NCBI RefSeq assembly: GCF_002206635.1
Contig: NZ_NGUO01000008.1
Span: 87,197-151,196 of the forward strand
Length of the DNA: 64,000 bases
Direction of reading: 5' to 3'
From: Polynucleobacter aenigmaticus
GTDB lineage: Bacteria; Pseudomonadota; Gammaproteobacteria; Burkholderiales; Burkholderiaceae
Position numbers and translations under genes: made by a program. Each line of letters opens with the position of its first letter. Position 1 is the first letter of the stretch. The notes under the pieces were generated by a model. That model was not told the origin of the DNA. It was given only the letters and a program-made list of their open reading frames with translations, and ran no database searches. This document shows, piece by piece, positions 15,827-54,241 of the stretch.

Positions 15827-15853
15827 TTATCGGCGGTGCTCTTAAGAACTTTA
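15827..15853 (-). promoter_or_regulatory. Consensus sigma28 (FliA) promoter of flagellin
   Basis: On the minus strand the sequence is TAAA, a 15-base spacer, then GCCGATAA. All 12 bases match the sigma28 consensus and the spacing is exact. The start of transcription would be near 15820. Confidence 0.93.
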
Positions 15854-25630: not shown

Positions 25631-26131
25631 AAAACTGTTTAGACTTAGTAGACTATCTTAGCCAGTCCTATACAAAATAGTAAATCCAAATTTAAAGTGC
25701 TGCAAATGATCTTCAGAGCAGATCACTCCTTTGTAACCCACATCAATACGAACATCCCAAGTAAGCGACCTTACTAGAGCAGACCATGTTGTCTTAATTG
25801 AGCTATGTGACGGAGCTGGCTCTTGATCATGTAGGGCCTTGTCTTACGCTTTGTTCAGTAGCTGACCTTCATTCACATTTATTAAAACATTTCAACGTAA
25901 ACCTATGAGATAGCTGGGTTTCCTCGCTCTTATTCGCTAATTCAATTTGTCATTCAAATAGTAAAGTCATCCCTAAATCTCGGTGAAGGCGTATGAAATC
26001 TGGAGGCAAAGGGGATTTGGTGGTGAGGAAAAATACGGAAGCTTAATCATTTCAATTTTTATATTAAGAAGTCATAAACACAGCATTATTTTTAAACTTA
26101 TTTAACGAATAAACCTCTTTAGGAGAAATAC
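25631..26131. other. 501-base spacer after flgJ; possible relic frame, no clear gene
   Basis: This is the place where flgK and flgL usually lie. No start-to-stop gene is supported. On the minus strand a stop-free frame of 62 codons (25658-25843), without a start codon, gives a sequence with alternating hydrophobic residues (SLTWDVRIDVGYKG). It could be a relic of a beta-barrel protein gene or chance. The last part must hold the promoter of the chemosensory operon starting at 26132, but I could not identify a convincing one. A GGAG ribosome site lies at 26121-26124. Confidence 0.5.
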
Positions 26132-28048
26132 ATGGCACTAGTTAAAAAACCAACCGCATCAACTGCAAGTTTAGGCGCAGATATTAAGGGTAATGCAGCT
26201 TCCAATCGCGAGGCTGATGCCGCGCGTAAAAAAGCAAGAACCCTGGGCAAGCAACAACAGGCTGCTGAGCGTATTGCCGCTGCAACTGCCGAATTGGCTT
26301 CGGGTATTGCTGAAGCTGCCGCTGCAACCGAAGAGTTAAAGCGTATATCAGATCAAATTGCCACGGTCGCAGAAGAAGCGTCTGGCGCGGCCCAGGAATC
26401 ATTAGCTGGGTTTACGCAGGTAGCGGGCGCTATTGATCGCCAGCTACAAAATGCTGACATTAGCCAGTCTAAATTAGAGGCAACTCAAGGTTTGATCGTT
26501 TCAACTAGCAATGATATTGCTGAGCTTATTACTAATGTAGGTATTGCCGCTCAACGTCAAGCAGCTTCAGTAACAATGGTTATCGAGCTGGAAAAGCAAG
26601 CGGCTAACATCGGAGATATCGTTAAAGCTGTTGCCCGTATTGCTGATCAAACTAATCTATTGGCATTGAACGCTGCAATCGAAGCAGCTCGGGCTGGGCA
26701 GCATGGCAAGGGATTTGCTGTTGTTGCTGATGAAGTCAGAACTTTGGCAGAAACTTCAGAAAAGAGCGCCAAACAGATTCAAGAGTTAGTCGGTCAAATT
26801 CAAGATGATGTGAAGAATATTGCAACGGGTATTAATACTTCTGCAGAAACTATGGAATCTGAGGCAGTTAAAGCTCAAGTAATCACAGTTCAGAATGAAC
26901 AAATTCGTTTAGATACAATCGCTTGCGTTGTCGGTATTCAGGAAATTGCAACGGGCGCAACCCAATCTAACGCTGCCGCTGAACAGGCATTGAAGGGCTC
27001 ACAGGATATAGCTGCTGCTGCAGAAGAGCAATCTGCTGCTGCCGAAGAGGGTGCTAAAACCGTTGATGAGCAAGGCTCAGCATTAGCCCAAGCAGAACAA
27101 GCAGCTCAGTCTTTAGCTGAATTGAGTGAAGATCTTAAAAACTCTACCGATGTGGCTAAGAGCGCTGAAGAGGTAGCTTCTTCTGCCGAACAATTATCTT
27201 CTGCAGTACAAGAAATTAATCGTGCTGCTGCGCAAGTAATGACTGCCATAGAGCAAATTAGTAGAGCTGCTGGAACACAGTCTGCAGCCGCTGATCAATC
27301 TGCCGCTGCCATTACCCAAATTGAAACTGGTTTAGAGGTTTCACAGGCTCGTGCAACAGACATTGGCTCAAAAATTACAACCATTCAATCTCTCTTGGGA
27401 GTTAATAAGACAAGTGTTGATGCTTTGATCGTTGGAATTACTACCTCTGTAGAGGCAACTATTGAAAGTGTTAAGAAGGTCAAAGATTTAGAGCTGGTAT
27501 CCCGTCGTATTGATAAGATCGTTGAAGCAATTTCAACTGTATCCATTCAAACCAATATGTTAGCTGTTAACGGTGCTATTGAAGCGGCTCGTGCCGGTGA
27601 GTTCGGTAAGGGTTTTGTAGTAGTTGCCACTGACATTCGTAATCTGGCACATGATTCCTCTGAAAATGCTGATCGCATTAAAGATTTGGTTAAGGCAGTT
27701 CAGGATCAAATTACAGTCGTGGGACGTGATTTAGAGGAGATTGCAGTAACTGCAAATACTGAGATTGAAAGAGCAAAAGCAAGCACTACCAACTTAGTCA
27801 TTATTGAATCTGACATGGGTATTGTAGATAAAGGTACTCAGGAAATCTTAGCTGCCTCTAATGAAATAGCCACTACTATTGGCCAGGTCAAAAAAGGTAT
27901 TGAGCAAATTGCGAATGCGGCTACTGAAGCCTCTACAGCAGCTGCTCAAGCAGCGAGCGCTGCTAAGCAACAATCTGATGGTGCCGAAGAATTAGCCTCC
28001 GCGATCGAGGAAATTGCTTCTTTGGCTGATGAATTACAAAGCGCTTAA
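26132..28048 (+). CDS. Soluble chemoreceptor with two signalling hairpin tips (DosM-like)
   Basis: A 638-residue, almost entirely helical protein without any transmembrane segment or ligand domain. It contains two copies of the MCP hairpin tip, 300 residues apart. Tip 1 is near residues 167-205 ([20 protein letters not shown]). Tip 2 is near 467-505 ([20 protein letters not shown]). Glu/Gln-Ala-rich helices that could carry methylation sites flank each (for example [14 protein letters not shown]). Vibrio cholerae DosM is the known precedent for a double-signalling-domain receptor, which bridges the two CheA/CheW layers of a cytoplasmic array. Tip 2 departs more from consensus. First gene of a tight 11-gene operon. 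Confidence 0.9.
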
Positions 28049-28069
28049 TAGCTTAAGGAAATCCATAAC

Positions 28070-29653
28070 ATGACAAACGATACCCAAATGAATGGGATTG
28101 ATGAGTCGATGGTGCTGGAGGGGGCGGCTGAAGTTAGCCGCACCGATACCCGTCAATTTGTTACTTTCATAGCTGGTAATGAAGTATTTGCAGTAGATAT
28201 GGCGCCTGTGCAAGAAATTATTCGTGTACCGGATGTTGTACGCGTGCCATTGGCGCCTAGCACTTTAAACGGGCTTGCCAACTTACGTGGCAAGGTACTC
28301 CCAATCATTTCTTTGCGCCGGATGTTTGGTTTTGAAGATTTAGCGCATGATGACTCTACCCGTGCTGTTGTGGTTGATTTAGGCCAGCCACTGGGTTTCG
28401 TGGTGGATCGCGTGGCTAGCGTGGTTGGAGTGGACGTGAGCAAGATCGAGGGCGTTGGTGGTATTAGCAGTGCGATTAATACCGAATTGCTTTCCGGCAT
28501 GATCAAAGACGTAGGCGGTCATGCCATGATTATGATTCTCAACTTTGAGAAATTGATCGAGCATGAATTTTCCCAAATTGCCTTGATTGCTAAAACAGCT
28601 AATCTAGGCGATGCGCATGCAAGCGGGATGAATGCTGAAGCTGAGATTGCAGAGTCTAATGATGAATTGCAATTAGTCAGCTTTGATGTGGCTGATCAAG
28701 AGTATGCAATTGACATTAATGATGTGCAGGAAATCGTTCAGGTTCCTGACAATATTATTCATGTGCCACGTTCACAAGCCCATGTAATTGGTGTAATGAC
28801 TTTACGTAATCGTCTTTTGCCACTAGTCTCTTTGCGCAAAATGTTTGCATTGCCTGATAAGCAGCTTGATGAAACTAGCCGTATTGTCATTTTGACCTTA
28901 GGCGGTGTTTCTGTTGGTATTGCAGTTGATGGCGTTAGTGAAGTCTTGCGTGTGGCCAAGGCTCACGTAGATGCGATGCCTGCCATGTTAGCGCGCGAAG
29001 GCAATCTCTCAGATATTTCAGAAATCTGCCGATTGGATGACGGTAAGCGTTTGGTATCCATTATTACTGCGCGCAATCTTTTCGACCACTCTGCAATTAA
29101 AGAGGCATTGAATGCCGTGAATAATATGGATCAAGATAATACTCAAGAAGTCCTTACGCACGAAGAGGGCATTGACGATGACGAACAAGTAGTCATTTTC
29201 TTACTCGATAAAGAAGAGTTTGGCGCAGCTATCACTAGCGTGCAAGAAATCGTTCGCGTTCCAGAGGATTTAGTTCGTGTGCCACATGCAGCAGACTTTG
29301 TTGAGGGCGTTATTAATTTGCGCGGTAGTGTATTGCCCGTGATTGATTTAAGAACTCGTTTAGGTTTGGAAGTAGTGGAGCGTTCTGATGGTCAGCGCAT
29401 TATGGTGTTCTTAATTAACGGAATGCGTACAGGGTTCATTGTTGATCATGTCGCAGAAGTTCTTAGAATACCTAAAGCAGCGATTGAGCAGTCTCCAAAA
29501 TTGTCAGTAGAACATGGCAAGCTCTTGTCTCGTATGGCTAATCTTGAGAAGCAAAAACGCATGATTCAGTTAATTGACACTGAGCATTTGATTGCCGGTG
29601 ATGATTTACTGAAGTTGGCAGCGGTGACCAAGACTCAAGCGAGTGTGGAGTAA
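28070..29653 (+). CDS. Triple-CheW-domain scaffold protein
   Basis: A 527-residue protein made of three consecutive CheW domains (about residues 20-165, 200-345 and 370-510). Each has the CheW core (VQEIIRVPDVVRVPLAPS, VQEIVQVPDNIIHVPRSQ, VQEIVRVPEDLVRVPHAA) and the N-L-R-G/N motif that contacts receptors and CheA. Repeat 2 has TLRNR instead of NLRGK, so its binding may differ. CheW normally has one domain of about 160 residues, so this is a multi-domain scaffold. It is probably a structural part of the array formed with the two-tip receptor 21 bases upstream. Confidence 0.93.
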   Translation: MTNDTQMNGIDESMVLEGAAEVSRTDTRQFVTFIAGNEVFAVDMAPVQEIIRVPDVVRVPLAPSTLNGLANLRGKVLPIISLRRMFGFEDLAHDDSTRAVVVDLGQPLGFVVDRVASVVGVDVSKIEGVGGISSAINTELLSGMIKDVGGHAMIMILNFEKLIEHEFSQIALIAKTANLGDAHASGMNAEAEIAESNDELQLVSFDVADQEYAIDINDVQEIVQVPDNIIHVPRSQAHVIGVMTLRNRLLPLVSLRKMFALPDKQLDETSRIVILTLGGVSVGIAVDGVSEVLRVAKAHVDAMPAMLAREGNLSDISEICRLDDGKRLVSIITARNLFDHSAIKEALNAVNNMDQDNTQEVLTHEEGIDDDEQVVIFLLDKEEFGAAITSVQEIVRVPEDLVRVPHAADFVEGVINLRGSVLPVIDLRTRLGLEVVERSDGQRIMVFLINGMRTGFIVDHVAEVLRIPKAAIEQSPKLSVEHGKLLSRMANLEKQKRMIQLIDTEHLIAGDDLLKLAAVTKTQASVE

Positions 29654-29658
29654 TAAAG

Positions 29659-30729
29659 GTGATTCGATTATTGATCGTTGATGATTCGGCGCTGATGCGC
29701 CGTCAATTAACAACCTTATTTGAGGCTGAAGGGGATTTTGATATCCGCCATGCCAGAAATGGGCGTGAGGCTGTCGAACTCAATCGCGAGTTTGAGCCTC
29801 ACGTGATCAGTTTAGATATAAATATGCCCGATATGGATGGCTTAACGGCCTTATCCCTGATTATGGCCCAACGTCCTGTTGGGGTGGTGATGGTGTCATC
29901 CCTTACTGAAAAGGGCGCATTAGCTACTTTTGAAGCCTTACATTTAGGTGCGATTGATTATGTCGCTAAACCTGGCGGTACGATTTCATTGTCGATTGAT
30001 GTCATTAAAGACGATCTGATCTCGAAAATTCGGGCCGCTTCGCGTGCTCGCCTCAAGGGTAAGACTTCTGTAAAGACTTTATCTGAGCGCATGCGCGATG
30101 ATCGGGCTAGAACTATTAGCAATGCCAAGAAGATGCGACCTAAAAGTCAGCATGGTGATGGCTTGGTATTAATTGGCGTATCGACAGGCGGACCACGAAC
30201 CTTAGAAGAAATTTTGCCGCAGTTACCAGCGGATTTTCCGTGGCCCATTTTAGTAGCACAACATATGCCAGCTGCATTTACTAAGTCTTTTGCAGATCGC
30301 TTAAATAACGTTTGCCCATTGAGGGTATCAGAGTTATCGCAGCCCACTGTCATTGAGCCTGGCCATATTTATATCGGTAAGGGCGGTGCGGACATGCTGG
30401 TAGCCAATAGGGTTGGTCGATTGATGGCAATACCTAAGCCAGAAAATACGGATTTCTTGTGGCACCCTTCGGTTGAGTTATTGGGGCGTTCAGCACTTGA
30501 GCACGTTAATCCTGAGGCCATCATTGGAGTGATGTTGACGGGTATGGGCTATGACGGAGCGGATGCATTTTCTGAAATTAAGAGTCGAGGTGGCAAGACG
30601 ATTGCTGAATCAGAAGAGTCGGCAGTGGTATTTGGTATGCCAGCCGAATTAATCGAACGCAAAGGCGCGAGCGTCATTTGTACATCGGACAAAGTAGCAT
30701 CGCAGCTCAATCGTTGGGCTGGGTTTTAA
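29659..30729 (+). CDS. cheB: Chemoreceptor methylesterase/deamidase CheB (second system)
   Basis: A 356-residue response regulator-methylesterase. REC domain: Asp8/Asp9 and phospho-acceptor Asp53 (LDINMPDMDG). Esterase domain: Ser175 (GVSTGG), His202 (AQHMP) and Asp299 (TGMGYDG), so the catalytic triad is complete. It removes methyl groups from receptor glutamates, giving adaptation. The GTG start at 29659 lies 5 bases after the triple-CheW gene. Paralogue of the cheB at 47003-48073. Confidence 0.96.
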   Translation: MIRLLIVDDSALMRRQLTTLFEAEGDFDIRHARNGREAVELNREFEPHVISLDINMPDMDGLTALSLIMAQRPVGVVMVSSLTEKGALATFEALHLGAIDYVAKPGGTISLSIDVIKDDLISKIRAASRARLKGKTSVKTLSERMRDDRARTISNAKKMRPKSQHGDGLVLIGVSTGGPRTLEEILPQLPADFPWPILVAQHMPAAFTKSFADRLNNVCPLRVSELSQPTVIEPGHIYIGKGGADMLVANRVGRLMAIPKPENTDFLWHPSVELLGRSALEHVNPEAIIGVMLTGMGYDGADAFSEIKSRGGKTIAESEESAVVFGMPAELIERKGASVICTSDKVASQLNRWAGF

Positions 30730-30741
30730 AAGGAAATTATT

Positions 30742-31365
30742 GTGGCATTAATTAAAAGTAAAGCCTTGCCCCAAGCTGTTGAGTTAACTGCTGAAGAAAA
30801 ACCTAGCTGTGAAAGTTTGCTTGCACAACTGTCAGATGAAAATCCGGAAACACGTCGCTGGGCAGCACGCGATATGTTGCATTGCGAAGATGCCAGCGAA
30901 GCATTGGTATCGCGCCTAAAAATAGAGTCTGAACTTTCTGTCCGAGAAGTCATTTTGACAGCCTTAATTCACTTAAAGAGCCCCAACTCGATTGCTGGAC
31001 TGGTTGAATGTTTACGCAGCGAGGACCCATCCTTGAGGAACGAAGCTCTGGAAGCGATGAAGCAGCTTCCTGACTTGGTTGCCCCAATTATGGTCGATCT
31101 TCTCAATGATGAGGATCCTGATGTCAGAATTTTCTCAGTCAATATTTTGGAGTCCTTACGTCATTCCGATGTTGAATCGTGGTTAATCGGCGTAGTTGAA
31201 GAGGATCCCCATGTCAATGTCTGCGCTACAGCTTTGGATTTACTCAGTGAAGTGGGTACTGAGGCTGCGATGGTAGCAATTCCAAAAATAAAGGCTCGTT
31301 TTGCTGATGAACCTTATATCCAATTTGCTGCCGATTTGGCTTTCAAACGCATAACAGAATGCTAA
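30742..31365 (+). CDS. HEAT-repeat protein of the chemosensory operon
   Basis: A 207-residue alpha-solenoid protein of about five HEAT-like repeats (ETRRWAARDML, SVREVILTALIHL, SLRNEALEAMKQL, DVRIFSVNILESL, NVCATALDLLSEV). HEAT repeats are protein-protein interaction surfaces. No enzymatic motif is visible. The start is a GTG with AAAGGAAA just before it. It lies between cheB and cheR, so a role in assembling or regulating this array is likely. Its exact job is unknown. Confidence 0.8.
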   Translation: MALIKSKALPQAVELTAEEKPSCESLLAQLSDENPETRRWAARDMLHCEDASEALVSRLKIESELSVREVILTALIHLKSPNSIAGLVECLRSEDPSLRNEALEAMKQLPDLVAPIMVDLLNDEDPDVRIFSVNILESLRHSDVESWLIGVVEEDPHVNVCATALDLLSEVGTEAAMVAIPKIKARFADEPYIQFAADLAFKRITEC

Positions 31366-31373
31366 AAAATACG

Positions 31374-32246
31374 ATGTCTAGGACCGCCTTACGTAAGACG
31401 GGCGAAATTACTATTAGCGAAGAGGACTTTAATAAGTTTCGGGAATTCTTCTATCGCAAAACAGGAATTAGTTTTGAGTCAAGCAAACGTTATTTTGTTG
31501 ATAAACGCTTGATTGACCGTGTCAATGCTACTGGTAGTGAAAATTTCCGTAGTTATTTCATTATGCTGCGCTTTCAAGCCTCTGGCGAAGAGCTGCAATT
31601 TTTAACCAATGCAATGACTGTGAATGAAACCTATTTCATGCGTGAGGAAGATCAATTTAAGTGCTTAGTTGATTCTATCTTGCCGGAAATTATGAAGCGT
31701 AAAGCTGCCACTAGAAACAGGCTCATTCGAATTTGGAGTATTCCTTCATCCTCCGGAGAGGAGCCATATTCAATTGCAATGTGTCTACTAGAGCGATGGG
31801 CTGATATTCACGAGTGGGATATTGAAATCATCTCCTCAGATATTGATACGGGTATTTTGCATAAGGCGAAGATTGGGCGCTATTCCGAGCGCTCAATTCA
31901 AAAATTACCCAAGGCATGGCTCAATAAATACTTCCGCCGCGTTGGTGAGGGGTATCAGATTAATGATGACTTGAGGGAGGCGGTTGAGTTCACCCGTGTA
32001 AACCTTACTGAACCTGCCGATACACGTCCTTACCGGAACTTCGATGTTATTTTCTGTCGTAATTTACTTATTTACTTTGATGACGTTTCACGCAAAACAG
32101 CGGCTGAATGTTTCTATGATGCGCTAACACCTGGCGGCTTTATATGTTTAGGACATTCTGAATCCATGAGTCGCATCTCCCCGCTATTTAAACCGCGTAA
32201 ATTCCCTGAAGCCGTCATTTACCAAAGACCCCTGGAGGCAAGATGA
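31374..32246 (+). CDS. cheR: Chemoreceptor methyltransferase CheR (second system)
   Basis: A protein of about 290 residues: N-terminal CheR helical domain and C-terminal SAM-binding domain (IRIWSIPSSSGEEPYSIAMC, then DIEIISSDIDTGILHKAK, then FDVIFCRNLLIYFD). It methylates receptor glutamates. The SAM motif I reads SIPSSSGEEP where most CheR have (C/S)AGCSTGEEPYS. I prefer the ATG at 31374, because the ATG at 31359 would overlap the upstream gene. It ends in an ATGA overlap with the next gene. Confidence 0.95.
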   Translation: MSRTALRKTGEITISEEDFNKFREFFYRKTGISFESSKRYFVDKRLIDRVNATGSENFRSYFIMLRFQASGEELQFLTNAMTVNETYFMREEDQFKCLVDSILPEIMKRKAATRNRLIRIWSIPSSSGEEPYSIAMCLLERWADIHEWDIEIISSDIDTGILHKAKIGRYSERSIQKLPKAWLNKYFRRVGEGYQINDDLREAVEFTRVNLTEPADTRPYRNFDVIFCRNLLIYFDDVSRKTAAECFYDALTPGGFICLGHSESMSRISPLFKPRKFPEAVIYQRPLEAR

Positions 32247-32611
32247 AGCGCATCCTAATTGTGGACGATGCTGCCACTGTACGTATGTACCACCGAAATA
32301 TTCTCGAATCCGCCGGCTTTGTAGTTGAAGAAGCGGTGAATGGATTAGAGGCACTCGAAAAAGCATTACAAACACCATTTGATTTGTACTTGGTAGATAT
32401 TAATATGCCGAAATTGGATGGATTTGGTTTCTTGCGCGAGCTGCGTAGTGAAGCAATTCCTCAAGCCCCGGCGATTATGGTTTCAACTGAATCTGAGGCG
32501 AATGATCGGTTAAATGCTTATAAAGCTGGTGCTAATGTGTATTTAGTGAAGCCAGTGAAGCCGGTGCAACTCCTAACGCATGCCCACTTATTATTAGGGG
32601 AGTCACGCTAA
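32243..32611 (+). CDS. CheY-like response regulator
   Basis: A 122-residue single REC domain. Acidic pocket D8/D9, phospho-acceptor D52 (VDINMPKLDG), switch region VSTES and Lys near 104 (VKPVKP). It overlaps cheR at the start, and its TAA shares an A with the ATG of the cheA that follows. It is one of two stand-alone receivers in this operon, so phosphoryl groups may be split between outputs or one may be a sink. Confidence 0.95.
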   Translation: MKRILIVDDAATVRMYHRNILESAGFVVEEAVNGLEALEKALQTPFDLYLVDINMPKLDGFGFLRELRSEAIPQAPAIMVSTESEANDRLNAYKAGANVYLVKPVKPVQLLTHAHLLLGESR

Positions 32612-35355
32612 TGAATCCGCTTCTAGAGCAATTTCTAGCTGAGGCACGTGAATTTCTCCAGGGAATTGGAGAGAAGCTCATAGAGTTGGAGCGCACTCCA
32701 GATGATGCTGATTTAGTAAATGAATTATTCCGACTGGTGCACACACTGAAGGGAAATAGCGGTTTATTTGATTTTCCGGAAATGATTCGCGTATTACATG
32801 CCGGTGAAGATTTAATGGATGTTGTGCGAAATGGTAAGACCCTGTATTCACAAGAGCTAGCGGATCGATTGCTAGATGCAATGGATTTTGTCGGTTTGCT
32901 GTGTGACGAGATTGAGAGTGGCGGCGTAATCGCACCATCAAGAGCGACGGATTCTGTCAAGTTGGTGGAATCTTTGCGCGCCTTGATTACATTTCACCCA
33001 TCAGATCATGATTCCGCCCCAAAAGATGCTGCAATAGGCGCTTCAGAAGTAGTGGAACTACCATCCGCACAATTGTTGAGCAGTATTCCGGAATCTGCAC
33101 GTATGTCAGCCTACGTAGATGGAGGATCGCTTTATTGGATTCGCTACACTCCGATTTCTGAATGCTTCTTCCAGGGTGAAGATCCTTTTTACACCTCTAG
33201 AAGAGTGCCGGGATTATTGTGGGGAAGAGGTAGTTCACGTGCGGATTGGCCTGCGATGGCAGATTTCAATGCCTATGAATGCGCGCTTGATTTTTATGTA
33301 CTTAGCAATGCATCAAAAGAAGAATTGCTAGCCCATTATCGCTATGTCCCTGATCAAATTCAGATCTGCGCAATCGACCCACTCTTTTTGGTTATCCCCC
33401 AGGGGGACCCAAACGGCGGTCCAGTATACGAGGACTTCGTAATCGAGGCATTGCAGCTCTTAGACGCAGATGATTTTGAGGGTTTAAACCAAGCTGCTCA
33501 AACTATGATTGAGCTCAGTAGCCCAGATTTATGGTTTTCTTCTGCTTTACGTTGGTTAATTGTTCTACTTCAATCTGAACCAAAGAATTGTTCTGCCATT
33601 TGCGCATTGATTTTCTCTTTACGCACTTTGGATACGCCAAATTGGTGCGATATAAAGATGGAGTCTACCGATCTTGCAATAAATAATGATGCTTCATCAG
33701 CGTCCAATGTGATTGAATTGGTGACCAACCCAACACCAGCCAACATTATTTTTGATGACCTTTCAGAGGAAGAAGTTGAGGCCTTAGAGGACATCCTGGT
33801 TGATCAACGGCAAATTTTACTCTTAGAAGATCGCCCAAATTGGGTTGCTGGGCGATGGACATCTGTTGCCGGCACCTTAGTTAATTGTTTTGTGGCTAGT
33901 GGAAACGCAGATGCAAAAGGGGAGATTGAGGATGCACTAGCGCAATCTATCGCCACAATGAATCCGACCCCTTTATTGTATTGGCTCGACTCCCGCCTAG
34001 GTCTCATTGGCAAAGAGAGCTCTGGGCAAACCCCGGACTCAGCGTTATCCACGGAGGATGATGCTTTGTATGCGGCAATGATGGAGGACTCCGGTACTGC
34101 TATAGAAGGCACTATTCCTGTGGCCACAAAGAGTCAGGATACGCAGAAATTTGGTAAGCGTACAGATGAAACTATAGCTGCTCCGAAGAGTCTTAAGGTT
34201 GATCAAGTCAAGATTGATCGTTTGATGAATCTCATTGGCGAGATGGTTGTCTCTAAGAATGCATTGCCATATTTAGCGCAACGTGCTGAAGATCAATTTG
34301 GTGTTCGTGAGTTATCGCGTGAAATCAAAACACAATATGCGGTAATCAACCGTATTGCTGAAGAGATGCAAGATGCCATCATGCAGGTTCGTATGATGCC
34401 CGTATCGTTTGTATTTCAGAGATTCCCGCGGCTAGTACGTGATATATCGCGCAAGCTAGGAAAAGAGGTTAACCTGGTTTTAGAGGGTGAAGATACCGAG
34501 GCAGATAAAAATATTATCGAATCTTTAGCAGACCCATTAATTCATATTCTTCGCAATAGTTTGGACCATGGCCTAGAGACACCTGATATTCGTAAGGCTG
34601 CCAAAAAACCCACTACGGGCACCTTAACTATCCGCGCTGCACAAGAGGCCGATCAAGTCATTATTGAGATCCAGGATGATGGCAAAGGAATTGACCCGGT
34701 TGCAATTAAGCGCAAGGCTTATGAAAAGGGGATCATTGACGAGGCAACTTTCGAACGCATTACCGATGCTCAAGCCGTCAACTTAGTATTCACAGCAGGC
34801 TTTTCAACTGCTGAAACCATTTCAGATCTTTCTGGTCGTGGCGTTGGGATGGATGTAGTGAGATCTGCTGTAGAAGGAGTGAATGGCACTATTGTTTTGG
34901 ACAGTGAAGTGGGTAAGGGTACTCGTATCCGCATCTCATTACCCCTCTCTATGGCCGTTACCAAGGTGATGATTGTGGAGTCTGACCAACAGATATTTGG
35001 TGTACCAATGGATCATGTGGTGGAAACTGTGCGCGTACCACGTCATGCCATTCGCGCCATTAAAAATAATCTGACAACTCTATTAAGGGGGCGACTCATT
35101 CCCTTGAAAAATCTTAATGCACTTTTAGATATTCCCGCCAATCAATTATCTAATGAACATGATGAGTTGGCGGTACTGGTTGTTCGAATAGGGTCTGAGT
35201 CAGTAGGTCTTGTGGTGGATAACTTTAATGAAACGATAGACGTGATTCAAAAGCCGCTGGATGGTGTGTTGGGTGGCTTATCGGCTTACTCTGGTTCCGC
35301 CTTGATGGGCAATGGATCCGTTTTGATGGTGTTGAATGTGAAGGAGATTGTGTAA
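32611..35355 (+). CDS. cheA: Chemotaxis histidine kinase CheA (second system), with large extra region
   Basis: A 914-residue kinase. N-terminal HPt with His44 (RLVHTLKGNSGLFDF), dimerisation domain from about residue 525 (KIDRLMNLIGEMVV), and an ATPase domain with N box (DPLIHILRNSLDHGLE), G1 (DDGKGI) and G2 ([10 protein letters not shown]). A C-terminal CheW-like domain (about 785-910) closes the protein. Catalytic motifs are complete. Between HPt and dimerisation domain there are about 400 residues instead of a short P2 domain. The first part (YWIRYTPISECFFQGEDPFY) resembles a P2-like regulator-binding fold. The rest is unrecognised and rich in aromatic and acidic residues. Confidence 0.96.
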   Translation: MNPLLEQFLAEAREFLQGIGEKLIELERTPDDADLVNELFRLVHTLKGNSGLFDFPEMIRVLHAGEDLMDVVRNGKTLYSQELADRLLDAMDFVGLLCDEIESGGVIAPSRATDSVKLVESLRALITFHPSDHDSAPKDAAIGASEVVELPSAQLLSSIPESARMSAYVDGGSLYWIRYTPISECFFQGEDPFYTSRRVPGLLWGRGSSRADWPAMADFNAYECALDFYVLSNASKEELLAHYRYVPDQIQICAIDPLFLVIPQGDPNGGPVYEDFVIEALQLLDADDFEGLNQAAQTMIELSSPDLWFSSALRWLIVLLQSEPKNCSAICALIFSLRTLDTPNWCDIKMESTDLAINNDASSASNVIELVTNPTPANIIFDDLSEEEVEALEDILVDQRQILLLEDRPNWVAGRWTSVAGTLVNCFVASGNADAKGEIEDALAQSIATMNPTPLLYWLDSRLGLIGKESSGQTPDSALSTEDDALYAAMMEDSGTAIEGTIPVATKSQDTQKFGKRTDETIAAPKSLKVDQVKIDRLMNLIGEMVVSKNALPYLAQRAEDQFGVRELSREIKTQYAVINRIAEEMQDAIMQVRMMPVSFVFQRFPRLVRDISRKLGKEVNLVLEGEDTEADKNIIESLADPLIHILRNSLDHGLETPDIRKAAKKPTTGTLTIRAAQEADQVIIEIQDDGKGIDPVAIKRKAYEKGIIDEATFERITDAQAVNLVFTAGFSTAETISDLSGRGVGMDVVRSAVEGVNGTIVLDSEVGKGTRIRISLPLSMAVTKVMIVESDQQIFGVPMDHVVETVRVPRHAIRAIKNNLTTLLRGRLIPLKNLNALLDIPANQLSNEHDELAVLVVRIGSESVGLVVDNFNETIDVIQKPLDGVLGGLSAYSGSALMGNGSVLMVLNVKEIV

Positions 35356-35594
35356 TGTCAATTGAATTCAAGAAAAAAAAGGCCTTCTTTAAGGAAGTGG
35401 TTGGGGTTGAGGAGGCCGAGAGTCTATTGCAGTGGATTTCAGATAACCCTAGCGGCAAGATTGATTTGAATTCCTGTACCCATCTGCATTCAGCAAATCT
35501 ACAAGTGCTCGTTGCTTGTAAACCCTTTATTTCTGCCTGGCCACAGGATGCATCTCTACGTGTGTGGCTAGAAAACTCTTTAATTAATAAGTAA
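35355..35594 (+). CDS. Small STAS-like protein
   Basis: A 79-residue protein. The core KIDLNSCTHLHSANLQVLVA resembles the STAS pattern (LDLSgVxxiDSaGLqvL) with Ser46 at the place of the phosphorylatable serine of anti-sigma-factor antagonists. It is shorter than usual STAS domains (about 100). The ATG overlaps the cheA stop. Similar small STAS-like proteins occur in other chemosensory clusters, but the role is not clear. The fold assignment is tentative. Confidence 0.6.
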   Translation: MSIEFKKKKAFFKEVVGVEEAESLLQWISDNPSGKIDLNSCTHLHSANLQVLVACKPFISAWPQDASLRVWLENSLINK

Positions 35595-35606
35595 GGACTG
35601 ATTTCC

Positions 35607-35984
35607 ATGTCAAAAAAAATATTCCTAGTAGATGACTCAGCGACTATGCTGAGCACTCTTAAAACATCCCTCATGATGAATGGGTTTGAAGTTGATACTG
35701 CCTGCGATGGTGTTGATGCCTTGAGCAAACTAAAGGCAGGCGCATTCAAACCAGACTTGATCATTACGGATGTCAATATGCCCAATATGGATGGCTTAGA
35801 ACTAATTAAAAACCTACGGTCTTTACCAGCCTTTCGTTTTATGCCAATACTCATTTTTACTACAGAGAGTCAATCTGCTAAACGTGAAGAGGGTAAAAAA
35901 TTAGGTGCCACTGGCTGGTTGGTGAAGCCAACTTCCGCTCCAACTCTCGTGGGAATTATTAAGGAAGTGCTTCCTGGGGCTTAA
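35607..35984 (+). CDS. cheY: CheY response regulator (second system)
   Basis: A 125-residue single REC domain with D9/D10, phospho-acceptor D55 (ITDVNMPNMDG), Thr in FTTES and Lys in LVKPTS. It lies 12 bases after the STAS-like gene and 4 bases before the CheZ-like gene, an arrangement similar to cheYZ. Its closest look-alike in the window is the CheY at 54242-54607 (both have GATGWL(V/I)KP). Confidence 0.95.
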   Translation: MSKKIFLVDDSATMLSTLKTSLMMNGFEVDTACDGVDALSKLKAGAFKPDLIITDVNMPNMDGLELIKNLRSLPAFRFMPILIFTTESQSAKREEGKKLGATGWLVKPTSAPTLVGIIKEVLPGA

Positions 35985-35988
35985 TTTT

Positions 35989-36771
35989 ATGGAAATTCAA
36001 AAAAAACTCCATTTCGGCGCACTTCCCAGCTACACCATTTCCCTCGGTGTAGGGATTGTTTTGTCTGTACTTGCTTTTAAGTTGGCGCAAAACTTGCCTG
36101 AGAATTCGATTTTGCCCTATGCAACTGGAGCGATTGTCTTGGTTGGTTTGGCTGTTTATCACATCCTATTTACCCGCTCAATTAATCGGCATATCGAAGA
36201 GGCTATTAAGACTCAGCAGATATGGGATAAAAGTCGTCAGTTAAACGATGAGAACTACAGACGCTTACAAGTTTTTTTAGGCTCTATTCCTGAGTTAAAT
36301 AAGTTGTTAGAGGCTCACTTGGCATTTATTAATGAATCCACTGAAAAAGCTTCTTTAGCCATTATTTCTAAACTTTTCTTGATGGAGGAGCGGGTTGCGC
36401 AAATTTTGAAGGAGTTAGATGGCCAGAAATTGCAGATCCCATCGGCGATCCTGTCACATGAATCTTTTATTGAAATGCGACATGCCATTATTGATATTCT
36501 TTCACATACCCAATTTCAGGATATTAGTAGACAGCAAATTGAAGTAGTGACAAAGGGTCTCGCTCTATGCGCGCAGTACTCTGATGAGGTGGCTCATATT
36601 CTGGACTCAAATAATCCTGAACCTTTGACTACTCCGAATTTACAGAGTGAGTCGATGAAGGCCTTACGTGAGAGCTACACCATGGAAGCGCAGCGTATTG
36701 TGCACTTTAATGCTACGGGTGATGACTCTGCATTAGATGTGGCAGGACGCCCGGCGATCGAATTATTTTAA
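35989..36771 (+). CDS. Membrane-anchored CheZ-like phosphatase (putative)
   Basis: A 260-residue protein. Two predicted transmembrane helices lie at about 15-32 and 43-62, followed by a long helical cytoplasmic part. Near residues 174-188 it has HTQFQDISRQQIEVV, which matches the CheZ active-site region ([15 protein letters not shown] in the CheZ of this window), including the catalytic Asp178 and Gln182 in DxxxQ. It directly follows cheY. It lacks the C-terminal CheY-binding peptide of CheZ (DDLLDSFGF) and ends AIELF. I infer a membrane-tethered phosphatase for the CheY proteins of this operon. Sequence identity outside the motif is low. Confidence 0.65.
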   Translation: MEIQKKLHFGALPSYTISLGVGIVLSVLAFKLAQNLPENSILPYATGAIVLVGLAVYHILFTRSINRHIEEAIKTQQIWDKSRQLNDENYRRLQVFLGSIPELNKLLEAHLAFINESTEKASLAIISKLFLMEERVAQILKELDGQKLQIPSAILSHESFIEMRHAIIDILSHTQFQDISRQQIEVVTKGLALCAQYSDEVAHILDSNNPEPLTTPNLQSESMKALRESYTMEAQRIVHFNATGDDSALDVAGRPAIELF

Positions 36772-36780
36772 GAGTGGTTT

Positions 36781-37569
36781 GTGTTTAAGCTCGTCATATC
36801 GAATCGCAAAGGCGGTACAGGAAAGACAACTGTATCGGTCAATTTAGCCGCAGAGCTTGCGGCTATTGGTAAGAGGGTGCTTCTGATTGACTTGGACTCT
36901 CAAGGACATTGCGCGGTAGGTTTAGGTTTGAAATTGACTTCAGATTCACCGACCATTCATGATCTTTTTTCTAAGCCTGGAACACCTCTATCAAAAACCA
37001 TTCATATTACTAATTTTGCTAATTTAAGTATCGCCCCAGCAGATACCTTATTTGAGCATGGTAGTGGACTGCGAGACCCTCGCTTATTGGTTAATAGCTT
37101 CGCCGAACTGGAGCTAGCCTCTAGTTATGATGTGGTGATTATGGATACACCGCCGTCGCATGACGTTCTCTTATTAAACGCATTGACAGCAGCTAATTTC
37201 ATTCTGGTTCCGTTTGTCCCTCACCCACTGTCATACGAAGGATTGCGACAGCTGATGCGAGTACTATTTAAGGTAATTTCTCGAGAAAATCGAACATTAA
37301 AGATTGCCGGTTTTTTACCGATTATGAGCTCTCAGAAAGTTCGTCAACATCATGCCACTAAGGGGGATGTCAGTAGGCAATTCGGAGCCTCGAGGGTCTT
37401 ACGGGGTATTCGCAATGACATTGCTCTTGCTGAGGCATTTGCTGTAGGAAAGCCGATCCGCTATCATTCGCCTAAAAGTCGTGGCGCAAAAGATTTTGCT
37501 GATTTGGCTCAAGGCATATTAGACTTAATCGAAGCTAGACAAGCCATCTCCATTAACCAAATCCTTTAG
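36781..37569 (+). CDS. ParA/MinD-type ATPase, probable array-positioning protein
   Basis: A 262-residue P-loop ATPase with the deviant Walker A KGGTGKTT (residues 10-17, signature Lys10 and Lys15), the switch segment LLIDLDSQGH, and Walker B VVIMDTPPSHD. No parB or centromere-like repeats are seen beside it, so plasmid or chromosome partition is unlikely. ParA homologues at the end of che operons (PpfA of Rhodobacter, ParC of Vibrio) distribute chemosensory arrays. This gene closes the operon of the soluble receptor, fitting that role. The start codon is GTG, 9 bases after the CheZ-like gene. Confidence 0.9.
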   Translation: MFKLVISNRKGGTGKTTVSVNLAAELAAIGKRVLLIDLDSQGHCAVGLGLKLTSDSPTIHDLFSKPGTPLSKTIHITNFANLSIAPADTLFEHGSGLRDPRLLVNSFAELELASSYDVVIMDTPPSHDVLLLNALTAANFILVPFVPHPLSYEGLRQLMRVLFKVISRENRTLKIAGFLPIMSSQKVRQHHATKGDVSRQFGASRVLRGIRNDIALAEAFAVGKPIRYHSPKSRGAKDFADLAQGILDLIEARQAISINQIL

Positions 37570-37663
37570 GGAAAAAATCTGCTCCCATTTTTTTTGGGGT
37601 TGGTTGAGGGATAGAGCGCCAAAAAGAGGTCCCTAAACTTGAAGAGGGGGTGGGCTCTTAGAT

Positions 37664-38464
37664 CTACTCCCCCTTTGTTTGCAGCAAATCCGACCCTGGC
37701 TGCTCAGCTTTATCTCGCAAAATCATGATGGAAACTCTGCGATTGCTCGCCTTGCTCTCAGCGGTATCGTTTGAGGCGATTGGCCGAGATGCCCCAAAGC
37801 CGCTTGCGCTTAGGCGGTCTTCGCTAATACCTTTTTGAGAAAAGACATTGAGAACGGTTGTGGCACGAATTGCAGAAAGCTCCCAGTTGGATGGAAATGA
37901 TTTGTTTTTAATTGGAGCATTGTCTGTATGCCCTTCAATTGCAATAGATTGGCCACTATTTAGGAGTATGGGTGCGATTTGCTCTAAGGTGTCCAAGCCT
38001 TCTGTATTGGCGATTTTGGTGGACCCAGGATTAAAGAGGTAGCTGTCTTTAATGTCGATACGGATCCCTCTCGGGGTTTGTGATACTCCAATTTTCCCGG
38101 CAAGAATGAGAGGCTTTAGAGCCTTAGTTAGGTCTTTTTCCATCTTGATCAATGCGAGATTGTTTTTTGATTTAGAGGAGAGGATGGGATCGATTATTGC
38201 GGGAATTTTACTGATTTGCTTATCTTTAAACTCTGAATTCTCGGTCGAACCCCCAGGTTCTTTATTGTCAAGTGATTTACTTTTAGTAGGATTGAAGGCG
38301 CTATTCATGGAGCTAGATAATTGACTATATTTGCTTTGATTGACCGAAGAGCTCGAGTACATCACCACAAAAAAGGCAAACAATAAGGTAATAAAGTCGG
38401 AATACGATACAAGCCACCGATCATGGTGCTCTATCTCTTCTGGTTGCCGAACTCTTCGCTTCAT
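37664..38464 (-). CDS. motD: Stator protein MotD (MotB family, second stator)
   Basis: A 266-residue MotB-type protein: cytoplasmic N-terminus, one transmembrane helix with proton-binding Asp23 (SYSDFITLLFAFFVVMYSS), a linker, and an OmpA-like peptidoglycan-binding domain (SIAIEGHTDNAPI, NWELSAIRATTVLNVF, ASNRRVSIMIL). It pairs with the MotA-type protein 7 bases upstream. The flhG-fliA-motC-motD order matches the MotCD locus of pseudomonads. The aspartate indicates H+ rather than Na+ coupling only weakly. Confidence 0.93.
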   Translation of the reverse strand: MKRRVRQPEEIEHHDRWLVSYSDFITLLFAFFVVMYSSSSVNQSKYSQLSSSMNSAFNPTKSKSLDNKEPGGSTENSEFKDKQISKIPAIIDPILSSKSKNNLALIKMEKDLTKALKPLILAGKIGVSQTPRGIRIDIKDSYLFNPGSTKIANTEGLDTLEQIAPILLNSGQSIAIEGHTDNAPIKNKSFPSNWELSAIRATTVLNVFSQKGISEDRLSASGFGASRPIASNDTAESKASNRRVSIMILRDKAEQPGSDLLQTKGE

Positions 38465-45756: not shown

Positions 45757-46410
45757 CTAAAAACCAAAGCTATCTAATAAATCATCCACTTGTTCTTGGG
45801 AGGACACTATATCTTTGGTCTGTTCAGGGTTAATCTGCGGTCCGTTCATGAGGCTTTTTTCAGTATCGTCTTTAGCGGAGCTTGGAGAAAAATCAATGAG
45901 GACTTGAACAAGTTGCTGCTCAATTTCTTGTGCCAATACAGTTACCCGCTTAATAACTTGACCTGTTAAATCTTGGAAGTCCTGAGCCATCATGATCTCC
46001 ATGAGGAGCTCTTTGGTTCGGGTTGTACTCTCTTCTGTTTTTTGAAGAAAAAAAACTGTTTTTTCAGCTGCTGCGCTGTACTCGCTCTGAACTGATGGTA
46101 CTAAAAGGGTTTCCTCCCAACATTGCTTCAGTTCCCGAGCTTGTCTTGCTAACCCATCTTGCAAGGGGTTAGCAAGGTCAGTGGCATTAAGAACCCTAAC
46201 TGCGGCTTGCTCAGTCATACGCGCAACGTAATTAAGTCTATCTCGGGCATCAGGTATTTTAGTGGCCACTTGCTCGAGTATTTTATCGAACCCTAAATCA
46301 CTAAGATTGTCATGGAGCATCCGCGTAACATGACCGACACGATTAAGAATTATTTCATGATCTGTAGCTACGGCTGATGCATCAGGGCTAACTTCAATGG
46401 AATCACTCAC
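45757..46410 (-). CDS. cheZ: CheY-P phosphatase CheZ
   Basis: A 217-residue dimeric four-helix phosphatase. The active site [15 protein letters not shown] contains catalytic Asp147 and Gln151. The C-terminal CheY-binding peptide [10 protein letters not shown] is intact. It overlaps cheY by 4 bases. It ends the CheY signal at the flagellar motor. Confidence 0.97.
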
Positions 46411-46826
46411 ACTGAAGCCTTTACTTTACTCATTTTTTCAAAGATTTTCACAAGCTTTTCATCCAGGGTTGCTGCGGTGAAGGGCTTGACAATGTAACCG
46501 TTGGCACCAGCCTGTGCTGCTGAGATGATATTTTCTTTTTTGGCTTCTGCTGTAACCATGAGAAATGGAACGGTGGATAAATCTGAATCAGCTCTCACTT
46601 TCTTAAGCAAGGTGAGGCCATCCATATTGGGCATATTCCAGTCACAAAGAATAAACTCAAAAGTGCTGTTTTTGAGTTTATTTAAAGCAATAACTCCATC
46701 TTCAGCTTCATCTACATTAGTAAATCCCAGCTCTTTAAGTATATTGCGAATGATTCTGCGCATGGTGGAGAAATCATCCACTATCAGGAATCTGGTGTTT
46801 GGATCTGCGACCGTTGCCTGCTCCAT
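46407..46826 (-). CDS. cheY: Chemotaxis response regulator CheY (motor-directed)
   Basis: A 139-residue REC protein highly like E. coli CheY ([69 protein letters not shown]). All CheY residues (two Asp, phospho-Asp, Thr, Lys) are present. The pair with cheZ and the similarity mark it as the regulator that binds FliM. Confidence 0.98.
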
Positions 46827-47002
46827 GGAAAAGTCTTTCGAAGGAATTAAATAAGTGGGGTGTAATTGCCCTTATTCGAGTTAGTGACAGTTACGCAAAT
46901 TGGAAATTATTAACCAAGGTATATCGTTTTAAAACTGAAATCTAAGCAGTAAAATTGGCTTAATTTAGGATATGAATTAGCGTCGGTTGTAGGTCTAAAT
47001 AT

Positions 47003-48073
47003 CTAATTTGTTGATGCTCGTCCAGACCGATTTAAGTGGCTTATGACTAAGTTGGGTATATCGCCAATACCAGCAATTTGATGTACACCACCAGCGGCAA
47101 TAGCTTCTTTTGGCATGCCATACACAACACAAGTTTCTTCATTCTGCGCAAGATTAAATGCGCCTGCTTCTTTCATATGCATCATTCCTACTGCGCCATC
47201 CTTGCCCATACCCGTAAGAATGATGCCGATGGCATTTTTTCCAACCACTGCAGCAGCAGAGCTAAATAGCACATCAACCGAAGGTTTATGACGATTTACG
47301 GGGCTATTGTTATCGATTTTCGTACAAAAATTATCACCAACTCTCGTAACGCTCATATGCATTCCGCCTGGGGCGATATAGGCATGACCAGGCTTGATGA
47401 CATCACCATCCTCCGCCTCTTTAACGTGGATTTCGCATATTGAATCCAATCTATTTGCAAAGGATTTGGTAAAGCCTGCTGGCATATGCTGGGTGATTAA
47501 TATACCAGGGCAATCTGATGGCATTTCAGTAAGGAAGGACTTAATGGCAACGGTGCCTCCTGTTGAGGCGCCAATAATAATGAGCTTCTCATTGCTTAAA
47601 TTTTGATTCTTTAAAGCGGTATTTGGAGTATTTGATTTCCCCAGCTCTATAGATGGTGCTGCAGTAGCTTTTATCTTCGCTTTTGAGGCGGCGCGAATTT
47701 TATCTGCAATGAGATCCGAGTACTCTCGGATCCCATCAACAATCGCTAGTTTTGGTTTGGTAACAAAGTCAACGGCGCCAAGCTCTAGAGCGCGCATAGT
47801 TATTTCAGAGCCACGCTCCGTTAGGGTGGAAACCATCACTACTGGCATAGGGCGAAGTCGCATCAATCGCTCAAGAAAATCCAAGCCATCCATCTTTGGC
47901 ATTTCAATATCCAGTGTGAGTACATCGGGATTATGTAGCTTGATCAGATCTCGAGCAATTAAGGGGTCGGGAGCAGTGGCAACTACCTGCATGTCGGGAT
48001 AGCTATTGATAATCTCGGATAGAAGGCTACGAATTAGCGCAGAGTCATCAATGACAAGTACTTTAGTTTTCAT
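47003..48073 (-). CDS. cheB: Chemoreceptor methylesterase/deamidase CheB
   Basis: A 356-residue protein: REC domain with Asp55 ([10 protein letters not shown]), a linker, and an esterase domain with Ser170 (GASTGG), His196 (TQHMP) and Asp292 (TGMGKDG). It is last in the main che operon, 39 bases after cheD. Works with CheR on the transmembrane receptor at 49621-51660. Confidence 0.98.
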
Positions 48074-48112
48074 TTATAAGATGGTATTTTGGAGTAAGAG
48101 TTCGTACGCAGA

Positions 48113-48742
48113 TTAAAATAATTCAATATCACCGGAAATACTTTTAGTATTGATGTGTTGAGCGTATTTCTTTTCGCGTTTGATGAGTTTGAGGTTGCTG
48201 GAGAGCTTAATTTTTTTTACAAAAACTTCGGCAGTTTTCGGGAAGAAATATACTTTGCGGGAATAGGACTCTACTAAATCCTCACCGGTGATTCGTATAC
48301 CTTCATCCATTAAATATTTGCGTACAAAAATGGCATTACGCTCCCCGATATTTAAGGCGTTAAATCCATGAAGAACGTTACCTCCACCGAATATCTTTGC
48401 CTCCAAATTTTCTCGCCGTCCTCCATTTTTTAGGATTTCATTAATTAAAATTTCCATTGCATATGATCCATAGCGCATCATCTCTGATGAGGGGTCATCT
48501 TTTTTATGGATAGCACTATCGGGCAACATATAGTGATTCATGCCGCCAATACCGTTTTTAATATCAGTAATACAGGCCGAGACACACGATCCTAGGACGG
48601 TAACGATTGCCATATTTTTATTGGTGAAATAATATTCACCCGGCGCGATCTTCACCGCTTCACAATTAAAGGTTTTATCAAAGTAGAGGTTTTGAGAGAT
48701 CGCTTCGGTAGGGGGGTTTAAGGCTGTACGTTTAGAGAGCAT
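48113..48742 (-). CDS. cheD: Chemoreceptor glutamine deamidase CheD
   Basis: A 209-residue protein. CheD catalytic Cys53 in LGSCVSACITD and His70 in GGMNHYMLP have the same spacing (17) as in characterised CheD. It deamidates receptor Gln to Glu. The C-terminus ends GDIELF, resembling the tail of the receptor in this operon. It overlaps cheR by 11 bases. Confidence 0.96.
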   Translation of the reverse strand: MLSKRTALNPPTEAISQNLYFDKTFNCEAVKIAPGEYYFTNKNMAIVTVLGSCVSACITDIKNGIGGMNHYMLPDSAIHKKDDPSSEMMRYGSYAMEILINEILKNGGRRENLEAKIFGGGNVLHGFNALNIGERNAIFVRKYLMDEGIRITGEDLVESYSRKVYFFPKTAEVFVKKIKLSSNLKLIKREKKYAQHINTKSISGDIELF

Positions 48743-49586
48743 GATGCGTATTTGCTTGCTGTTTTAGTTTGTAAACGGTCTTACCGCAAAGCTTGAGGTC
48801 TTCCGACTGATACATAAAATTTTCTGAGTGACCAAAAAAAATTAGTGCATGAGGCTTCATCAGAGGTAGAAATTGATGTAGGATTTTCGTTTGTGTAGTT
48901 TTGTCAAAATAAATCATGACATTACGGCAAAAAATAGCGTCAAATGCATTATGAAGCGGCCAGCGATGATTTAATAAGTTGAGATGCTGGTAGCTAACTA
49001 AATTCCTCAGTTCTTGACGGATCTTAACAAATCCCTCCTGTTTGCCAGTTCCCCTGAGGAAAAATTGTTCGCGACGATCCTCTGATAGCTTGCTTATGCG
49101 ATGAGAAGAGAAAATGCCACTTTCTGCTTGTAGCAACACGTTGGTATCGATATCAGTGGCAATAATTTTGACTGGTGGGGTAACGGTTTCAAATACCTCG
49201 CAAGCAGTCATGGCAATGGAGTAGGGCTCCTCTCCTGTGGAGGCAGCGCAGCACCAAATGGTGATTGGTGCATTCAGGCTGGCTAGGTGTTCAGCCAGAA
49301 TGGGGAAATGGTGATTCTCGCGGAAGAAGGAGGTTAAATTAGTTGTGAGCGCATTAATAAACTCTTCCAGGGCTCTCTGGTTGTGTGTGCCCATCAAGGA
49401 ATCTAGATACTCTTTAAAAGATCGAATTCCTTGGTTGCGAAGAATGCGACTTAAGCGCCCATATACTAACTCTGCTTTTGTTTCTGCTAGTGCAATTCCT
49501 GCATATTGATAAATTAACTTTCTCGCTCTAGTAAAATCCTCATTCGTAAAATCAAATTCTCGGTCAGATTTATTTAAAATATTCAT
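48732..49586 (-). CDS. cheR: Chemoreceptor methyltransferase CheR
   Basis: A 284-residue CheR: N-terminal helical domain (RKLIYQYAGIALAETKAELV, GRLSRILRNQGI) and SAM-binding domain with ITIWCCAASTGEEPYSIAMT and DAIFCRNVMIYFDKTTQ. It is in the main che operon after the receptor, whose C-terminal WxxF pentapeptide would tether it. Confidence 0.97.
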   Translation of the reverse strand: MNILNKSDREFDFTNEDFTRARKLIYQYAGIALAETKAELVYGRLSRILRNQGIRSFKEYLDSLMGTHNQRALEEFINALTTNLTSFFRENHHFPILAEHLASLNAPITIWCCAASTGEEPYSIAMTACEVFETVTPPVKIIATDIDTNVLLQAESGIFSSHRISKLSEDRREQFFLRGTGKQEGFVKIRQELRNLVSYQHLNLLNHRWPLHNAFDAIFCRNVMIYFDKTTQTKILHQFLPLMKPHALIFFGHSENFMYQSEDLKLCGKTVYKLKQQANTHHAL

Positions 49587-54221: not shown

Positions 54222-54241
54222 AACTGTCTATATCTCAGGCG

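Follow-up and report, generated by a model that had tools for sequence, protein, structure and literature searches.

The locus and its chemosensory class

The DNA considered here is a window of 64,000 nucleotides from Polynucleobacter aenigmaticus (contig NZ_NGUO01000008.1, positions 87,197 to 151,196 of the forward strand; all coordinates below are counted within this stretch), in which a chemosensory operon sits between flagellar genes. A preliminary description had read eleven nearly contiguous genes at 26132-37569, and their coordinates and strand were confirmed: all eleven open frames are present on the plus strand, and neighbours either overlap or are separated by no more than 21 bases. 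Their order is DosM (a soluble receptor), CheW3 (three concatenated CheW domains), CheB, a HEAT-repeat protein, CheR, a single-domain receiver (RR1), CheA, a STAS-like protein, CheY, a predicted membrane protein referred to here as gene 10, and a ParA-family ATPase (Table 1). The family labels of nine of the eleven are backed by Pfam and NCBIfam. Judged by its sequence, the operon is a member of the known chemosensory class F9, and its real novelty is gene 10, which appears to be a chemoreceptor from which the entire signalling hairpin has been removed and which now probably acts solely as a membrane-anchored phosphatase of phosphorylated CheY (CheY-P).

The relevant passages of PMC9321776 single out two components as found in class F9 only, DosM, a soluble receptor whose signalling domain is doubled, and a CheW of three domains; they place the class in 72 of 2781 species (64 full and 8 partial systems) and report many horizontal transfers. 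Both signatures are found in the window. The first gene, read earlier as a two-tip soluble receptor, indeed encodes two stretches of PF00015 and two intact tips (EAARAG at residues 184 and 484), with no hydrophobic segment above the cut-off (maximum mean 1.22 in a 19-residue window), and the triple CheW is borne out by three stretches of PF01584. In a CheA tree that took 55 of 69 rows, 29 F9 CheAs together with those of L063 (whose contig ends before CheW3) and L092 (without a detected CheW3) fall on one side and 24 other CheAs on the opposite side; the CheA of the window belongs to the F9 side, where its closest neighbour is the CheA of Polaromonas sp. CG9_12 (75% identical across 446 columns; 99% support in the Shimodaira-Hasegawa-like approximate likelihood ratio test).

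The gene order CheW3-CheB-HEAT-CheR-receiver-CheA-STAS-CheY-receptor recurs in 27 of 27 complete loci, a locus fetched through the receptor motif or through CheW3 being counted as complete when it holds all nine genes from CheW3 to the motif-bearing receptor. These loci are not independent of each other, since nine of them belong to Actinoplanes or Paractinoplanes. DosM precedes CheW3 in 25 of the 27, the fetched stretch or contig being too short to include it in the other two (L161, L164). The preliminary description had not recognised this combination of genes as described, and had left its novelty to be decided by a CheA phylogeny; the two F9 signatures, the place of CheA in the F9 group beside Polaromonas and the nine-gene order of the relatives lead to the rejection of an undescribed combination. 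That the genome carries a second chemosensory operon was correctly seen, with both its F9 identity and the receptor origin of gene 10 missed. The HEAT and STAS genes are present in all 27 complete loci and ParA in nine, and therefore HEAT and STAS count, within this sample, as core components of F9 and ParA as an optional one. Any of the three may already figure in the gene-content tables of the supplement to PMC9321776.

Twelve further loci are incomplete, most of them cut at a contig end or at the edge of the fetched stretch. Two loci lack several genes in a way that a contig end does not explain: L069 (Glaciecola) has DosM pieces, CheW3, CheB and a motif-bearing receptor, the genes from HEAT to CheY not being found between them and no run of N being present, and in L092 CheW3, CheB, HEAT and CheR were not found. 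The operons of Actinoplanes and Paractinoplanes (L082-L084, L091, L094, L097, L100, L106 and L107) have receptors of 348-382 residues with the tip variant EAVRAG.

The closest counterparts in layout are those of Polaromonas sp. CG9_12 (L031) and a Nitrosomonadales metagenome-assembled genome (L029), which share with the window eleven genes in the same order, with ParA at the 3' end, but in which the tenth gene is a receptor of 412 or 419 residues with an intact tip. The imaged example of the class is cluster I of Vibrio cholerae, for which PMC7534058, in its F9 passages, describes DosM (VC1403), a triple CheW (VC1402), CheA (VC1397) and a receptor with a transmembrane region (VC1394), together with an array in which two CheA/CheW layers are spaced by DosM, which is purely cytoplasmic and whose function is unknown. 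Those passages do not mention HEAT or STAS proteins; the locus tags would leave space for exactly these ten genes. With this cluster the window shares DosM, the triple CheW, CheA and a gene for a receptor with a transmembrane region, and differs in that the receptor gene has lost its hairpin, ParA has been added and the genome has one further receptor. F9 arrays have thus been imaged without a known function, and the membrane receptor encoded alongside them appears, from the same passages, to be little studied; its topology is there equated with that of the McpA-like 24H membrane receptors of F7 systems.

A receptor without its signalling hairpin

No credible Pfam family was found for gene 10, the two matches obtained (expectation values, E, of 0.028 and 0.048) both falling below the cut-offs of their own families. 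A search of 5.8 billion proteins gave 39 homologues, of which four have 260 residues, and 34 of the other 35 carry PF00015, the exception being P0005. Aligned to these relatives, gene 10 presents both ends of a receptor: a hydrophobic N-terminus, a helix with the pattern N..STE, a helix with QFQDISRQQIE and a tail RPAIELF. What is absent relative to the nearest relatives is a run of about 158 residues that corresponds to the whole kinase-control hairpin with its tip, the tip being the part of a receptor that binds CheA and CheW. Neither Pfam nor the alignments find a signalling hairpin with a conserved tip in the 260-residue forms, and alignments and trees assign the anchor, arms and tail of gene 10 to a receptor family. 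The four 260-residue forms measured have 56 residues from STE to QFQD, whereas the distance is 214 in Polaromonas, P0007 and P0010, 213 in P0005, 198 in P0008 and 182 in P0009 (P0006 was excluded because of a false pattern match).

In other F9 loci the same slot is occupied by a receptor. A recognisable tip is present in all 80 of the loci fetched by way of the receptor motif; with a strict pattern it is detected in 69, and in 66 of these the distance from tip to QFQD is exactly 110 residues. Across the 27 complete loci, 24 of the open frames in this slot are 348-461 residues long and the remaining three 522-675. The earlier statement that the operon has no transmembrane receptor is therefore literally true, but gene 10 appears to descend from one; and in calling it a membrane protein like CheZ, that reading had rightly noticed the CheZ-like motif (FQDISRQ, residues 176-182) and overlooked the chemoreceptor around it.

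The hairpin-less form is found in three of 186 genomes of the genus, including that of the window, and the sole full-length hairpin-less match among 398 family and 399 order genomes sampled was the window's own, all others lying in frames of 346-540 residues. This narrow distribution and the loss of the kinase-control hairpin are what would be expected of a receptor gene decaying without a function. Such decay is nevertheless disfavoured and most improbable, because the four database proteins, which are 62-99% identical to that of the window, have all kept exactly 260 residues along with motif, arms and tail, length and motif holding even at 62-65% identity.

A search with P0005 revealed a second departure from the canonical receptor in three proteins of 349-388 residues (P0005, P0040 and P0041, the last without the N-terminal anchor), in which the length of the hairpin is kept and the canonical tip is lost, being replaced by sequences such as LPTQVAEVALNGNPEPFYLI. 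Within this trio the tip region is 56-71% identical, which argues that it has been rewritten and is not simply decaying. The hairpin taken whole (48-59%) is less well conserved than the two arms (65-78%). In a tree built without the hairpin columns, the tip-rewritten proteins (support 100/99) and the four hairpin-less ones (96/94) are sister groups, jointly supported at 100/99, and the joint group stands beside intact receptors including that of Polaromonas (83/87); with P0005 as the sole tip-rewritten form the group received 100/100 and its placement 98/87. The tree needs two changes of state, and so is consistent with a single loss of the canonical tip and a subsequent excision of the hairpin in one line. 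On these trees the tip-rewritten forms are sisters of the hairpin-less proteins and need not be their ancestors.

The likeness of the receptor arms to CheZ

The phosphatase motif of CheZ is given in PMC7750401, in the passage that defines it, as DXXXQ with AXXFQ beside it. Gene 10 has this motif in FQDISRQ, where DXXXQ is preceded by FQ, and the receptor arms of the family mostly read FQD(I/V)(T/S)RQ. In the CheZ set used for comparison, which consists of the genome's ordinary CheZ and 29 additional sequences chosen by motif, the corresponding stretch is QD(L/I)TGQ within AQ..QD(L/I)TGQ. Among operons found independently through CheW3 (11 of 369 genomes, the window's included, of which ten were fetched and six reached gene 10), all six gene-10 proteins have Q[FY]QDxxRQ, with Tyr in place of Phe in two.

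A profile of the receptor family (117 rows, hairpin columns removed) matched the 30 CheZ sequences with a score of 38.2 (P 2.8e-5, probability 74%), in an alignment of 96 columns that is collinear across both helices, and 60 column shuffles gave at most 22.9. The C-terminal arm alone scored 36.7 (probability 78%), against at most 21.1 for 100 shuffles and 21.1 for 17 ordinary arms of methyl-accepting chemotaxis proteins (MCPs) or DosM. The N-terminal arm alone aligned through TE-A-A with a score of 23.0 and a probability of just 12%, 60 shuffles giving at most 18.9. An earlier shuffle run in which gappy columns were kept, with 24 of 25 scores at most 15.9 and one at 138.8, was repeated without these columns. 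Gene 10 and CheZ are thus alike in their two-helix layout, in TE-A-A on the first arm and in FQD(I/L)(S/T)xQ on the second, in identical order; gene 10 differs in its predicted membrane anchor, in the roughly 56 residues between the motifs, in its C-terminal peptide and in having no Pfam match. Taken together, the sequence comparisons are suggestive of homology between receptor arms and CheZ, and are not proof of it.

Several observations weigh against this likeness and against a phosphatase built on it. The fact that all 117 rows have D and Q follows largely from the way rows were selected. Pfam CheZ (PF04344) gives no match to gene 10 at E 0.1; Foldseek on the gene 10 model returned no match below E 0.001 and no CheZ among the best 50 matches; and a search of PDB sequences with the family profile had receptors only among its significant matches, and no CheZ. 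Five hairpin-less sequences compared alone with CheZ scored just 19.4 (probability 1%), so that the link to CheZ rests on the wider receptor family. The AlphaFold 2 (AF2) model of gene 10, which shows an anchor, a long helix, a loop and a return helix (helices at 11-34 and 38-145), is itself weak, with a predicted local distance difference test (pLDDT) score of 68.3 and a predicted template modelling score of 0.38. The scan for the anchor is unspecific, as CheW3 and ParA each pass it once, and P0002 and P0005 have just one hydrophobic segment over its cut-off. Finally, the ordinary CheZ of the genome (45757-46410) could serve the CheY of the operon.

A weak hint from outside the family came from a Pfam CheZ scan of 114 genomes, which gave seven places below the cut-off. 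Six were fetched: L168, L169 and L170 are receptors with QFQDxxxQ, L171 is an ordinary receptor, and two hold no gene like that of the window. The proteins at L168 and L169, each about 400 residues long, carry QFQDRTSQ or QFQDRVGQ, of which the latter is closer still to the DLTGQ of CheZ, and end in FF; these receptors perhaps belong to a wider group of receptors with CheZ-like arms. Within the titles and abstract openings covered, no report was found of a receptor with a CheZ motif or of a receptor origin of CheZ.

Proposed mechanism and alternatives

In the proposed mechanism, DosM, CheW3 and CheA would build a flat cytoplasmic double-layer array, which ParA would position and share out at division. 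Such an array had been suggested from the outset and is upheld as likely, with the F9 array of V. cholerae as its analogue. CheA would phosphorylate CheY and perhaps also the second receiver, RR1; in both receivers the phosphorylated Asp is followed two positions later by Asn, and position 89 is Glu, matching E. coli CheY in an alignment. Gene 10 would then dephosphorylate CheY-P or phosphorylated RR1 at the membrane through D178 and Q182. Without a tip it should not bind CheA or CheW and would be unable to join the array, so that kinase and phosphatase would be spatially separate. For the HEAT and STAS proteins, a role as partners of the array or as input modules is assumed. Receptor genes in this genome number only two, DosM and a transmembrane receptor encoded in the other che cluster, and HEAT, STAS and the transmembrane receptor are the candidate signal inputs. 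A minimal F9 system in a genome with one other receptor offers a clean setting for the question of what feeds the array.

The tail of gene 10 allows for a different role, that of a tether or adaptor without enzymatic activity, in which RPAIELF would attach CheR, CheB or CheY to the membrane and the FQD stretch would be structural. The C-terminal Phe is present in 117 of 117 rows, preceded by Ile, Glu and Leu in 103, 99 and 99 of them, and the transmembrane MCP of the genome ends in WELF, a sequence similar to the pentapeptide through which E. coli receptors bind CheR. The signalling hairpin is where receptors are methylated, so that with the hairpin lost self-methylation would be no ground for retaining a CheR tether; moreover, the FQD helix aligns with the catalytic helix of CheZ, and a purely tethering role is considered unlikely.

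A role in membrane attachment of the array seems very unlikely. Gene 10 lies in the same cluster, and no other protein of the operon has two hydrophobic helices side by side at its N-terminus; on these grounds it could be the F9 membrane anchor through which units made of DosM alone are held, but it has no tip for contact with CheA or CheW or for packing into receptor trimers, and the V. cholerae F9 arrays described in PMC7534058 are purely cytoplasmic in spite of the transmembrane-region receptor encoded in the operon.

A membrane-anchored phosphatase thus remains the favoured reading of gene 10. That the hairpin was discarded and the arms and the FQD..RQ motif were kept points to a phosphatase role for this receptor family. 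On a tentative and rather doubtful extension of this argument, the membrane receptors of class F9 would be two-in-one proteins, with a kinase-control tip and a CheZ-type site in the arms, of which the phosphatase half would have been freed here by deletion of the hairpin, and CheZ would long ago have arisen likewise from a chemoreceptor; if true, this would offer an evolutionary route to CheZ.

Other genes of the operon

Table 1. Genes of the F9 operon and features within gene 10, with lengths in amino acids (aa)
Feature	Position	Strand	Basis
DosM, two-tip soluble receptor, 638 aa	26132..28048	+	PF00015 twice
CheW3, three concatenated CheW domains, 527 aa	28070..29653	+	PF01584, three stretches
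CheB methylesterase, 356 aa	29659..30729	+	PF01339 and PF00072
HEAT-repeat protein, 207 aa	30742..31365	+	PF13646; same slot in 27 of 27 complete relatives
CheR methyltransferase, 295 aa	31359..32246	+	PF01739, PF03705
Single-domain receiver (RR1), 122 aa	32243..32611	+	PF00072
CheA kinase, F9 type, 914 aa	32611..35355	+	Hpt, H-kinase_dim, HATPase, CheW; F9 group in tree
STAS-like protein, 79 aa	35355..35594	+	AF2 model with RsbV-like fold; 20-row alignment from F9 loci
CheY receiver, 125 aa	35607..35984	+	PF00072; 44% identity to E. coli CheY over 112 residues
Gene 10, apparent hairpin-less receptor derivative with predicted membrane anchor, putative CheY-P phosphatase, 260 aa	35989..36771	+	Alignments, trees, profiles
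Gene 10, transmembrane segments predicted at residues 12-30 and 41-59, joined by a short loop	36022..36165	+	Hydrophobicity scan; AF2 helices
Gene 10, junction at about residues 143-157, site of the hairpin in relatives	36415..36459	+	Alignments, NESTE-to-QFQD spacing
Gene 10, QFQDISRQQIE with CheZ-like motif (D178, Q182)	36511..36543	+	Aligned to the CheZ FQDLTGQ helix
ParA-family ATPase, 262 aa	36781..37569	+	NF041546 and others below their own cut-offs; ParA/Soj structures, best E 1.7e-31

The 79-residue protein matches no Pfam family, and the best match in a search of PDB sequences with the STAS profile had an E of only 0.71. Its earlier reading as STAS-like gains from the AF2 model, which predicts a STAS fold with a mean pLDDT of 94.8 and whose best structural match is RsbV (E 7.6e-4), followed by further anti-sigma antagonists of the SpoIIAA type and by MlaB. 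The residue following the conserved His varies in the family alignment (Thr, Ser, Pro, Ala), and because it is not fixed the protein is more likely of a scaffold type than phosphorylated.

ParA has the Walker A sequence KGGTGKTT. Among the nine complete loci with ParA it stands at the 3' end in L028, L029 and L031 and between STAS and CheY in L050, L068, L095, L163, L164 and L165. The presence of ParA genes within che operons is itself long known: the survey in PMC2829493 finds a PpfA homologue without ParB in the che operons of 77 of 206 species, and a putative cytoplasmic receptor accompanies it in 86% of the 77. The window resembles the PpfA type of Rhodobacter sphaeroides in that a che operon encoding a cytoplasmic receptor also contains a ParA-family gene; unlike in that type, the association of F9 with ParA is optional, with two positions. 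Recruitment of ParA by a ParA-specific N-terminus of DosM was considered and is unsupported, as the stretch is also recognisable in the ParA-less loci of Actinoplanes and Rheinheimera. This basic N-terminal stretch (26132-26290) is conserved across L029, L030, L031, L074, L084, L105 and others, with or without ParA, and possibly binds the nucleoid or a partner.

Transcription of the operon as a single unit is plausible. Promoter-like sites between 25500 and 38000 are fewer than expected by chance (nine against 23.7), and a terminator-like stem lies 3' of ParA at 37646-37671, though stems of this kind (14, against 11.5 in shuffles) occur at about the chance rate. Control by a flagellar sigma-28 promoter is unsupported, as 25631-26131 holds no site at two or fewer mismatches under the one fixed spacing searched. 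Elsewhere in the window a flagellin-like gene is preceded by a perfect match to the sigma-28 pattern (15827-15853, minus strand), and near matches number 107, against a maximum of 91 among 100 shuffles.

Genomic surroundings

The position of the operon among flagellar genes would make the flagellar motor a candidate output, but at 37 F9 or F9-like loci outside the genus, no homologue of 20 flagellar proteins of the window was found in the stretches covered, of which 25 of the 37 were at least 16 kb. Two further genomes of the genus (L114 and L115) match the segment 25201-42664 at 99.2% identity, as far as their stretches extend. The similarity ends inside flgJ at 25201, which suggests a recent exchange between species of a block carrying the F9 operon.

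The other che cluster, at 45757-54607, comprises CheZ, CheY, CheB, CheD, CheR, one transmembrane receptor, CheW, CheA and a second CheY. Its CheD is presumably the frame at 48113-48742, and its neighbours are genes which we take to be flhA/flhB, motA/motB and likely flhC/flhD. The last residues of the transmembrane receptor, DADWELF, resemble the tail of gene 10. Further downstream, at 58751-62575, a hybrid kinase of 1274 residues contains a receiver and Hpt stretch that is duplicated almost verbatim within the protein, and at the edge of the flagellar island an open frame (158-1261) presumably encodes a transposon protein of the TnpB type, which it resembles.

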